64,000 nt of DNA from Poritiphilus flavus. Its GTDB lineage: Bacteria; Bacteroidota; Bacteroidia; Flavobacteriales; Flavobacteriaceae. How positions within the stretch are numbered: position 1 is the stretch's first letter; each line of letters starts with the position of its first letter. A program made the translations under genes and the position numbers. A model generated the notes under the pieces. That model searched no databases, had not been told where the DNA came from, and worked only from the letters and a program-made list of their open reading frames with translations. The stretch is taken from NCBI RefSeq assembly GCF_009901585.1, contig NZ_WXYO01000007.1:62001-126000 (forward strand), read 5' to 3'. Shown one piece after another: positions 32,649-35,628 of this stretch.

Positions 32649-33335
32649 TCAAATGCAGGAGGCCCAGATCGGGTCAGCGGGAGGAGGAGCTACGATCTGT
32701 AGCGGAGTTTTTTTAACGGGATGTACAAATGAGATACTCCTGGAATGTAATGAAATACTACCGTCCCTGTTGCTCCTCGGGGCACCGTATTTCAGATCAC
32801 CCCTTATCGGGCTACCAATAGCGGCAAGTTGGCAGCGTATCTGATGATGTCTTCCTGTTTCCAGTTGGATCTCCAGCAAATAATAATTGTCTAGCTTCTG
32901 CCTTAAGCTGTAATTGAGGATGGCCTGCTTACTATCCGGTACTTCCTTGGGATAGGCATAGGATTTATTTTGACGGGGATTCCGCTTTAACCAGTGGATC
33001 AACTTCCCGTTTTCGGCCTCGGGTTTATTCTGCACTAGCGCCCAATAGGTCTTTGTAACGGTTTTCGCAACAAACATCTTATTCAATCTGGGTAAAGCCT
33101 TAGAGGTTTTTGAGAATATTACGGCGCCTGTAGTTGGCCTGTCTAACCGGTGAACCACTCCCAGGTAAACGTTACCTTCTTTTTTATATTTCGCTTTTAG
33201 AAACCGCTTAACGATCTCACTCAAGGGAATATCTCCGGTCTTATCGCCCTGAACAATATCACCGGATCGCTTATTGATCGCGATTAAGTGATTGTCTTCG
33301 TATAATACTTCCAGATTTGAAGGGTTAGATCGCAA
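32649..33335 (-). CDS. RluA-family pseudouridine synthase with a TTG start at a repeat array
   Basis: This 228-residue RluA-type enzyme converts uridine to pseudouridine in rRNA or tRNA. It has the catalytic Asp motif HRLDRPTTGAVIFSKT and the RluA terminal ETGRHHQIRCQLAAIG. No S4 domain precedes the catalytic domain, so it is the short form. The start is unusual: the frame opens at a TTG (33335), with TAA-TAG stops 12-13 codons upstream and no ATG, GTG or other TTG between, and the octamer array begins 3 bp upstream. It may have lost its native start region to the array. Which RNA it modifies cannot be read from the sequence. panB lies upstream on the same strand, beyond the island. Confidence 0.85.
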   Translation of the reverse strand: MRSNPSNLEVLYEDNHLIAINKRSGDIVQGDKTGDIPLSEIVKRFLKAKYKKEGNVYLGVVHRLDRPTTGAVIFSKTSKALPRLNKMFVAKTVTKTYWALVQNKPEAENGKLIHWLKRNPRQNKSYAYPKEVPDSKQAILNYSLRQKLDNYYLLEIQLETGRHHQIRCQLAAIGSPIRGDLKYGAPRSNRDGSISLHSRSISFVHPVKKTPLQIVAPPPADPIWASCI

Positions 33336-33337
33336 GG

Positions 33338-33505
33338 TTTTGGAGGTTGGGAGGGTTGGATTATTAGACTATTAGATTTTTAGACTGTTGGATTTCTGGA
33401 CTTTTAGATTTTTAGACCGTTGGACCATTAGATTATTGGATTATTGGATTGTTAGACTGTTTGACTGTTGGATTTCTGGACTTTTAGATTTTTGGACTTA
33501 CGGAT
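33338..33505. repeat. Octamer array A (21 units, NNTTRGAY on the + strand)
   Basis: Twenty-one consecutive 8-bp units (such as TATTAGAC, TGTTGGAT, TTCTGGAC, TTTTAGAT) fill exactly 168 bp. On the minus strand the unit reads CYAANNRT, the same family as arrays B and F. A four-unit block at 33386-33417 recurs at 33466-33497, exactly ten units later, with one mismatch, showing higher-order duplication. The array starts 3 bp upstream of the rluA TTG and ends 27 bp before the stop of the four-helix-bundle gene. Confidence 0.9.
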
Positions 33506-33531
33506 CACTATATTCGTTTGGCAAACCTTTC

Positions 33532-33882
33532 CTATTTCATCGTGGACTTGAACTTAGATGTCATTTTTATGATTGATTGCAAATCCGAATTTATGGTATT
33601 AAAGATACTGCTGTCAATATAATTCAGGTCTTGGGCGATCAGGAGCTGTGTTTCGATTTCATATAAGGATCCGATGGCAAAGTCAAGAAACCTTCTAAAA
33701 TCTTTCTTAGTCCTTCTTGAAGTTCCTTCAGCAATATTTGAGGGTACGGAAACCGCCGCTCTCCTCAATTGAACTACAAGCCCGAATTTTTCAGTATCTG
33801 GAAAGTCGTTCGTCAATCGATAAATTGATGTACAAAAAACTCTGCTCCTTTTCCAAATATCAAGCTTTTTAAAGCTATGCAT
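33532..33882 (-). CDS. Four-helix-bundle protein, S23/IVP family
   Basis: This 116-residue protein has the family hallmarks: KLDIWKRSRVFCTSIYRLTN as first helix, the LRRAAVSVPSNIAEGTSRRT segment linking helices, and FRRFLDFAIGSLYEIETQL for the third helix. The fold is that of IVP proteins found in 23S rRNA intervening sequences and of Avd, the accessory protein of diversity-generating retroelements. No reverse transcriptase is nearby, so an Avd role is not supported. I chose the ATG at 33882 (MHSFKKL), the usual family start; the frame runs 18 codons further. The gene lies between oppositely oriented octamer arrays A and B, inside a 1.47-kb repeat island between rluA and panB. Its link to the repeats is inference. 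Confidence 0.9.
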   Translation of the reverse strand: MHSFKKLDIWKRSRVFCTSIYRLTNDFPDTEKFGLVVQLRRAAVSVPSNIAEGTSRRTKKDFRRFLDFAIGSLYEIETQLLIAQDLNYIDSSIFNTINSDLQSIIKMTSKFKSTMK

Positions 33883-33977
33883 CTTCGCTGAAATTAATCC
33901 ATCCCATGGATTCACAAAAAAGCAATTATTTTGCATTCCAGCCCTCTAAAGACCCAAATGTCAAGAAATCTATACTT

Positions 33978-34057
33978 CCATCCGTCTAGCCGTCTAATCA
34001 TCGAACCATCCAACTATCCAACCCTCCAATCATCCATCCGTCTAACCATCGAACCGC
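33978..34057. repeat. Octamer array B (10 units, CYAAYCRT-like)
   Basis: Ten consecutive 8-bp units (CCATCCGT, CTAGCCGT, CTAATCAT, CGAACCAT, CCAACTAT, CCAACCCT and others) form an array oriented opposite to array A relative to the four-helix-bundle gene. A 45-bp stretch (34012-34056) recurs in array F at 34638-34681 with one base missing and one change. Confidence 0.88.
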
Positions 34058-34076
34058 CTATCAATTTAGTTGATAG
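34058..34076. repeat. Short hairpin after array B
   Basis: CTATCAA (34058-34064) and TTGATAG (34070-34076) form a perfect 7-bp stem around a 5-nt loop directly after the last octamer of array B. Confidence 0.5.
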
Positions 34077-34112
34077 TTAACCGTTGGTAGTTTTCTGGCT
34101 TCAAAACTTGAA

Positions 34113-34232
34113 ATCCTCAATTTCACAGTTTCACAATTTTACACTTTCACAACTTCCCGATTTCTCATTTTCAAATTTTCAAATTGTCAAACCTTCAAAT
34201 TGATTCATTGTTACATTTCCAAATGTTCAAAT
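34113..34232. repeat. Octamer array C (NTTCANAN, 15 units)
   Basis: Fifteen consecutive 8-bp units such as TTTCACAG, TTTCACAA, TTTCTCAT, TTTCAAAT, TGTCAAAC and CTTCAAAT show a period of 8 but a different consensus from arrays A, B and F. The units are degenerate, more so at the right end. Confidence 0.8.
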
Positions 34233-34261
34233 AAAGTCTTAGCCTTTCTGCTTTCGAATTG

Positions 34262-34307
34262 CAGTAATCAGTGAACAGTGAACAGTAAACAGTGAACAGT
34301 AAACAGT
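34262..34307. repeat. Heptamer block D (CAGTRAA)
   Basis: Six 7-bp units (CAGTAAT, CAGTGAA, CAGTGAA, CAGTAAA, CAGTGAA, CAGTAAA) are followed by a partial unit CAGT, for 46 bp. A copy of the same length occurs as block E. Confidence 0.88.
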
Positions 34308-34415
34308 CTCCCTTACAAATTGAACCGGATCTTAAGCTTACGCTTTGACTTGGACTTAGTCTTCGTATTTCCTGCTTTTGAATTGCAGTCAAATCAGCTA
34401 ACTTGAGATTGGGGA

Positions 34416-34430
34416 GGGGTTTAGAACCCC
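34416..34430. repeat. Small hairpin GGGGTT-TAG-AACCCC
   Basis: GGGGTT (34416-34421) and AACCCC (34425-34430) form a perfect 6-bp stem with a 3-nt loop, located between heptamer blocks D and E. Confidence 0.45.
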
Positions 34431-34442
34431 GAGTTCAGTTGG

Positions 34443-34488
34443 CAGTGAACAGTGAACAGTAATCAGTAAACAGTGAACAGTAATCAGT
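34443..34488. repeat. Heptamer block E (CAGTRAA)
   Basis: Six 7-bp units (CAGTGAA, CAGTGAA, CAGTAAT, CAGTAAA, CAGTGAA, CAGTAAT) and a partial CAGT make 46 bp, the same length and design as block D 181 bp upstream. The unit order differs. Confidence 0.88.
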
Positions 34489-34806
34489 TTACCGTCTAAC
34501 CATCGAACCATCCAAACGTCTAACCATCTAGTTATCCACCCATCCATCTAATCGTCCATCCGTCTAACCGTCTACCCCTCCAACTATCTAACCGTCTAAT
34601 CATCCAATCATCCATCCGTCTAACCATCCATCCGTCTAACTATCCAACCCTCCAATCATCATCCGCCTAACCATCGAACCGTCCAAACGTCTAACCATCT
34701 AGTTATCCACCCATCCATCTAATCGTCCATCCGTCTAACCGTCTAGCCCTCCTTCTACTCGTCCAACCTTCTAACCGTCTAACCATCCATCCGTCTATCC
34801 TTCTAA
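34489..34806. repeat. Octamer array F (CYAACCRT-like, about 40 units)
   Basis: About 318 bp of 8-bp units (CTAACCAT, CGAACCAT, CCATCCGT, CTAACCGT, CCAATCAT and others) in the same orientation as array B. An 88-bp block at 34494-34581 recurs at 34665-34752 with three mismatches. The 171-bp offset is 21 units plus 3 bp, reflecting a slip at CATCATCC near 34656. The array runs up to the panB stop codon. Confidence 0.88.
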
Positions 34807-34809
34807 CAC

Positions 34810-35628
34810 TCAATACTGCTCCTCGTCACTCGGGAAATCCTGACTTTTTACATCGTTCACATAACTGGAAATGGCATTCCCCATATCTTCGTATAGATTC
34901 ATATAACGCCTCAAAAATCTCGGATTGAATTCGTGGGTCATACCCAGCAAATCATGAATGACCAGTACCTGCCCGTCCGCGTATTTACCACCGCCGATAC
35001 CAATTGTTGGAATGGAAATACTTTCGGAAACCTTTTTGGTGAGTTCGGCCGGAATTTTCTCCAACACTATACCAAAACAACCCAGTTTCTCCAGCATTTT
35101 GGCATCGTCCATCAGCTTGTCCGCTTCATCTTTTTCCTTGGCCCTAACGGTATAGGTCCCAAACTTGTAAATGGATTGAGGTGTTAAACCCAAATGCCCC
35201 ATTACCGGTATCCCGGCATTTAGGATCCTTTTTACCGATTCCTTTATTTCCACACCCCCTTCAACTTTAACCGCATGAGCTCCGCTTTCCTTCATGATCC
35301 TTATTGCGGATCGAAGCGCTTCTTTGGGATCGCTTTGATAACTGCCAAAAGGAATATCCACCACTACAAGAGCCCTTTTCACTGCTCTTATCACCGAGGA
35401 GGCATGATAGATCATTTGGTCCAGGGTGATAGGTAAAGTAGTCTCATGACCGGCCATGACATTACTGGCTGAATCACCGACCAGGATCACATCCACTTTG
35501 GCGTTATCTACGATTTTAGCCATGGAATAATCGTAGGCGGTGAGCATGGAGATCTTTTCACCCTGCTGCTTCATTTCAACGAGCGACTTTACCGTCACGC
35601 GTTTGTACTCTTTTTTTGCGGTAGACAT
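34810..35628 (-). CDS. panB: 3-Methyl-2-oxobutanoate hydroxymethyltransferase
   Basis: This 272-residue enzyme makes ketopantoate from 2-oxoisovalerate and methylene-THF, the first step of pantothenate synthesis. Diagnostic segments are [79 protein letters not shown], and [18 protein letters not shown] with HDLLGMT near the C-terminus. Metal and substrate residues appear intact. The stop at 34810 lies directly at the end of octamer array F, so any downstream co-transcription with rluA now crosses 1.47 kb of repeats. glyA, which links folate supply, is elsewhere in the window. Confidence 0.97.

Follow-up and report, generated by a model that had tools for sequence, protein, structure and literature searches.

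An S23 gene between inverted arrays of 7- or 8-bp tandem repeats suggests a minimal mobile element

The region examined here, positions 33338-34807 of a 64 kb stretch of Poritiphilus flavus DNA (hereafter the window), lies between panB (34810-35628, minus strand; PF02548, E 1.8e-114), the upstream neighbour, and an rluA-like RNA pseudouridine synthase gene (32649-33335, minus strand; PF00849, E 6.4e-34), the downstream neighbour, which are separated by 1474 bp and which we take as the boundaries of the element. The only plausible gene inside is encoded on the minus strand at 33532-33882 (116 aa; an alternative start gives 33532-33936, 134 aa) and belongs to the S23/23S_rRNA_IVP family (PF05635, E 1.8e-38, 131.4 bits against a cut-off of 33.8; TIGR02436, E 1.3e-36), known previously mainly from inserts in bacterial ribosomal RNA. 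It is flanked downstream by array A (33338-33505, minus), a degenerate 8-bp tandem array that is C-rich on the gene strand, and upstream by array B (33978-34057, minus), a G-rich 8-bp array of the TTRGAYNN family on the gene strand. The earlier note had described these two arrays as members of one unit family in opposite orientation with the S23-like gene as the only gene between them, and this observation was confirmed: both arrays are in 8-bp register and mutually inverted, with an inverted-match score of 54 against a cross-locus 99% level of 39, although the units are degenerate rather than exact, as Tandem Repeats Finder (TRF) reported 72-73% matches.

The same intergenic region holds four more arrays, namely an 8-mer array of CAATTTCA type (34118-34178, no strand assigned), which resembles the arms of another S23 gene of this genome (locus L005), two 7-mer CAGTNNN arrays (34262-34307 and 34443-34488, both plus), the first of which resembles the arms of S23 gene L006 of this genome, while 31 bp of the second match L006 beside its S23 gene at 97%, and a long further 8-mer array of the same family as array B (34491-34807, minus), apparently separated from it by the other arrays, a nesting that is inferred. 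A folding statistic placed every period-7/8 array of the window (z>9) between 33333 and 34841.

The AlphaFold model of the S23 protein (pLDDT 96.6) is a four-helix bundle that matched 2GSC with a TM of 0.97, 2RLD and, weakly by E-value (0.033, 11% identity) but with a TM of 0.80 in Foldseek, the Avd structure 4DWL. Both 2GSC and 2RLD have five chains, and the title of the paper on the 2GSC protein speaks of five four-helix bundles. The protein matched no nuclease or recombinase family in Pfam or NCBIfam, and neither it nor the three neighbouring proteins scanned had a transposase match in Pfam. An alignment of 151 S23 proteins (those of 90-170 aa among 158 loci) revealed a near-invariant polar set, Q38, R41, S45, N49, E52 and E75, suggestive of a binding or catalytic site, and the median dN/dS was 0.10 in the 46 of 65 pairs with dS<3, indicating purifying selection; the protein therefore probably works.

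The genome (5.0 Mb, 19 contigs) carries nine S23 genes, six of which have period-7/8 arrays beside them and seven of which have mutually inverted flanks above the cross-locus 95% level. Their units differ, being TTRGAYNN at the window locus (L001), AATTGTGA-like at L005, CAGTNNN at L006 and GATATNN-like at L009. In 864 kb sampled, many arrays were also found far from any S23 gene, and hence array and gene are not always together. However, 40 solo arrays from 800 kb of this sample (z>9, more than 3 kb from S23) matched the arms of the genome's own S23 genes with a mean best score of 71.4, whereas 30 random sets of nine foreign S23 loci averaged 34.6 with a highest set mean of 50.0, and 22 of the 40 exceeded the foreign 95% level. 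An S23-less relative of the composite in the window lies in pieces at about 260.1-265.9 kb of the window's own contig.

To test whether such arrays are associated with S23 genes in general, as the earlier note had proposed, we examined a named set of 80 loci, the best 80 of 568 relatives. Arrays of period 7 or 8 (z>8) lay within 500 bp of 27 of 80 S23 genes, but of only 25 of 702 other ORFs in the same contigs, and period 8 alone was found at 9 of 80 against 1 of 702. Period 6 (5 of 80 against 15 of 702) and period 12 (2 of 80 against 0) showed a smaller excess, and periods 5, 9, 10, 11 and 13 showed at most one S23 locus. Period-7 arrays near control genes lay mostly on the 3' side (19 of 24 sides). 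We then added 78 loci from this and other genomes of its family; the family set comprised 69 of the 200 matches outside the own genome, 29 of them the best matches and 40 picked by us, partly from genomes rich in CAGTNNN arrays. Of the resulting 158 loci, six, all from the named set, lacked 150 bp on one side and were left out, and in L122 the ORF taken lies 533 bp from the original match; orthologous loci in these sets are not independent. The inversion of the two flanks, likewise named beforehand as a criterion, was observed (score >28) in 103 of 152 S23 loci against 42 of 698 control ORFs, and at a score >36 in 62 of 152 against 6 of 698, leaving 49 of 152 loci without inverted arms above the threshold. 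Outside Bacteroidota, 10 of 16 loci with enough flank showed inverted arms, among them Acidobacteria, Ignavibacteria, Gamma- and Betaproteobacteria, Gastranaerophilales and Thermodesulfobacteriota. Of 24 plasmid records with S23, nearly all cyanobacterial, 20 were opened and 16 scored for arms, 9 of which exceeded 28; L299/L300 and L301/L302 are near-duplicates, and the arms of L301/L302 overlap the ORF end and so were missed by the score. Chance or ordinary microsatellites were thus rejected by the per-gene controls.

CAGTNNN arrays were found in 21 of 45 genomes with S23 genes and in 1 of 15 without (one-sided p 0.004; with at least five matches, 12 of 45 against 0 of 15, p 0.02), a result that is not corrected for relatedness or genome size and for which loci L229-L258 were not read. 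Samples of 400 kb from four S23-bearing genomes held no period-7/8 arrays (z>9), nor did 400 kb from three S23-free ones, against 43 in 800 kb of genome G000. This sampling was uninformative for the general question, but S23 genes evidently do not always bring many solo arrays.

On the gene strand, arrays with z>7 were G-rich upstream (G>C in 38 against 4) and C-rich downstream (C>G in 35 against 9). Among the 121 of 158 loci with a predicted neighbour on both sides, S23 pointed in the same direction as the upstream neighbour in 117 and as both neighbours in 103, whereas control ORFs, whose neighbours were predicted mechanically in the same way, did so for both in 372 of 740. Three plasmid loci, L305, L306 and L308, lie antisense to both neighbours, and in L304 (1869-2476) the arms, AGCTAAA and AGCCAAA, are in direct rather than inverted orientation, the clearest exception to the rule.

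Arm similarity rose with protein identity, far more in the same orientation than in the opposite one; protein comparisons used the 151 of 158 loci with proteins of 90-170 aa. In 47 pairs with at least 65% protein identity and unrelated outer flanks (synteny threshold 75), 77% had an arm score of 36 or more and none in the opposite orientation, while the respective values were 44% and 11% of 176 pairs at 55% identity or more, and 6% of 500 distant pairs. Examples of a shared protein clade and unit with unrelated flanks are the clade of the window (L001, L081, L085 and L088, including the pair L081/L088), Pedobacter (L096, L103, L110 and L114 against L119 or each other), the CAGTNNN loci L006 and L269, and Vreelandella (L142 and L156). 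The array unit therefore differs between loci but follows the protein clade.

In order to look for presence or absence of the element at its own site, as had been suggested beforehand, the panB loci of 29 relatives were compared. The rluA match started 3-75 bp after panB in 16, farther away in 6, and was not found within 1.5 kb in 7. The window genome, genome G019 (locus L163, S23 59% identical, TTRGATNN units upstream) and, judged by eye from the translations, Flagellimonas L080 have S23 at this junction, whereas genome G013 has a CAGTNNN array without S23. In L160 and L161 an ORF that looks like lspA, recognized by eye without a family search, lies between panB and rluA. Part of the distribution at this site is vertical inheritance.

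A reciprocal case was found on Nostoc plasmids, where L301 has S23 at a junction that is empty in L312, and L312 has a different S23 at the next junction, which is empty in L301, in DNA 89-99% identical; the empty junctions hold no array. No clear target-site duplication was seen: one junction showed none and the other showed ATG on both sides, which may only be the start codon, so that this comparison does not settle whether a duplication accompanies insertion. A search of plasmids with the L301 element (about 418 bp from its match ends) gave nearly the same ends at other places (L309; L311 and L315), an internally deleted copy (L319) and end fragments. In L316 the S23 gene, 97.5% identical to the L301 element, is interrupted by a 182-bp S23-less element (L316:2175-2356) with inverted arms of similar heptamers, matches to which lie at 98 places in 43 plasmid records (listed organisms Nostocales), 28 of them with one place covering at least 80%. 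This 182-bp element has ends of its own, and GATAA follows all four copies aligned (a fifth row, from L302, is not a true copy), so that another enzyme may move it. L299 and L300 initially looked like a transposition inside one strain, but the S23 gene and three flanking genes have the same sizes and spacing in both records and a fourth differs by 3 bp, and we therefore read them as a duplicated segment. In L137 (9989-11981), two S23-like genes, the second recognized by eye from its translation, lie at two junctions of one operon, about 1.3 kb apart.

Folding the window element as RNA paired the two arms (z −2.41 from 20 shuffles). Across the 153 loci with 130 bp of flank, however, predicted pairing was not clearly stronger for sense than for antisense RNA (79 against 68), and only 54 of 153 same-locus duplexes passed the 5% level of cross-locus duplexes; pairing in RNA is plausible, but was not separable from pairing in DNA.

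Taken together, we consider it more likely than not, with moderate confidence, that the S23 gene and its two inverted arrays are one small mobile element, of the same kind as the S23-bearing intervening sequences of 23S rRNA but inserted between protein genes and with 7/8-mer arrays as ends. The data themselves demonstrate that S23 genes of several phyla carry mutually inverted flanks built of degenerate 7- or 8-bp tandem repeats, that the unit goes with the protein clade to unrelated loci, that the gene nearly always points the same way as its upstream neighbour, that filled and empty operon junctions exist, and that internally deleted and S23-less relatives with the same repeats occur elsewhere. 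What we infer beyond this is that the S23 protein, a pentamer in its solved relatives, binds its own repeat unit at the element ends, as DNA or RNA, and brings host enzymes to copy or insert the element, that S23-less arrays are mobilized in trans or are leftovers, and that in the transcript the arms pair around the ORF, as in rRNA intervening sequences, which would let the element sit inside operons at low cost; that S23 moves or writes the arrays is likewise an inference. The interpretation of the earlier note, that gene and repeats may form one unit that generates, moves or maintains the arrays, is consequently supported in part. The single unit is supported by the array enrichment, the inverted flanks, the clade-specific units and the filled and empty plasmid sites, and neither lack of enrichment nor equal abundance away from S23 genes, the outcomes named in advance as refuting, was obtained, despite the many distant arrays of the window's own genome. 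Generation or maintenance of arrays is not shown, and rests on the resemblance of solo arrays of this genome to its own S23 arms and on the distribution of CAGTNNN arrays.

Other explanations were considered less likely. The arms could be kept as a stem in operon transcripts and cut by RNase III, as described for an rRNA intervening sequence (PMC4990558), with S23 as a resident RNA-binding protein regulating its operon and with movement being ancient and not a present function. The strong sense-orientation bias, the low dN/dS and the retention of S23 plus arms at one junction with homologous outer flanks in different genera (e.g. L057/L067/L113/L120) would fit this view, but the same clade and unit at unrelated loci, the reciprocal junctions on related plasmids and the absence of a clear sense-strand advantage in predicted pairing do not, and we regard it as unlikely. 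Somewhat less likely still is that the arrays are recombination or slippage hot spots between which S23 genes ride as cassettes by array-array recombination, with no role in the process. The composite multi-family arrays and common S23-less arrays of this genome are compatible with such a passenger role, in contrast to the coupling of unit and protein clade, the strand rule of the inverted arms and the array-free empty junctions of L301 and L312. Very unlikely, in our view, is that S23 acts like Avd with a reverse transcriptase supplied in trans and the element moves through RNA. Despite the Avd-like predicted fold and the orientation bias, 28 of 45 S23-bearing genomes of the family sample had no RVT_1 match at E 0.001, among them G007 with 16 S23 genes and G006 with 11, making this route unlikely as a general rule.

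Compared with the 23S rRNA intervening sequences carrying an S23 ORF, such as the 428-nt sequence of Coxiella, which has been called selfish with mobility among the hypotheses discussed (PMC4990558), the window element shares the protein family, a similar size (for the L301 element) and an ORF between complementary ends, but it is not inserted in a 23S rRNA gene, its arms are degenerate tandem arrays, and solo and internally deleted relatives occur; excision by RNase III was not examined, no RNA data being included. Occurrence of the domain in CPR rRNA inserts has been reported (PMC11270868), and a four helix bundle gene has been listed between guanylate kinase and nicotinate-nucleotide adenylyltransferase genes (PMC5524665). 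The resemblance to Avd of diversity-generating retroelements was noted previously (PMC10053308), yet the window protein scored 21.4 bits against the cut-off of 80 of the curated Avd model, and the only RVT_1 match of the genome lies on another contig (C13, the window being on C16); a template/variable repeat pair was not searched for. MITEs and minimal insertion sequences share inverted ends, S23-less or deleted copies, dispersal in many records and occurrence of the same element at unrelated sites, but no transposase gene is present here and the ends are tandem arrays; no clear target-site duplication was seen, although the L301/L312 junctions do not settle this point. Intergenic period-7 direct repeats have been described as orphans, namely TAACTGA of Beggiatoaceae, Cyanobacteria and Bacteroidetes (PMC4679880), for which horizontal transmission was suggested but no mechanism was evident, and GGGAATC of Xanthomonas and GGGGA(T/C)T of Nostoc (PMC4692102). 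The term S23 occurs in neither main text, whether those units flank S23 genes was not tested here, and no paper that we recognized in the open-licence PMC literature, to which our searches were confined to the exclusion of subscription papers and preprints outside PMC, links S23 genes with tandem arrays. The combination of the S23 protein and paired ends of an intervening sequence with tandem-array arms outside rRNA is what appears to be new.

A farther-reaching reading, which is possible but tentative, is that S23/IVP proteins are the dedicated, sequence-specific proteins of a widespread class of minimal mobile elements whose ends are 7/8-bp tandem arrays, each clade recognizing, spreading and perhaps writing its own unit, also in trans. 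This would make them the source of many orphan heptamer and octamer arrays of bacterial genomes, with rRNA intervening sequences as a special case and the near-invariant polar set as the recognition or catalytic site. Two old puzzles meet here, i.e. what the S23 protein does and where dispersed heptamer and octamer arrays come from, and a clade-specific pairing of protein and repeat makes both testable. The findings also suggest that PF05635 alone is a poor marker for diversity-generating retroelements, and that S23 genes noted in cas loci (PMC3936711) are inserted elements rather than cas genes, as in L303, L304 and L307, where S23 genes with flanking repeats lie inside cas operons of cyanobacterial plasmids (cas6-S23-cas4 twice and cas10-S23-cmr3).
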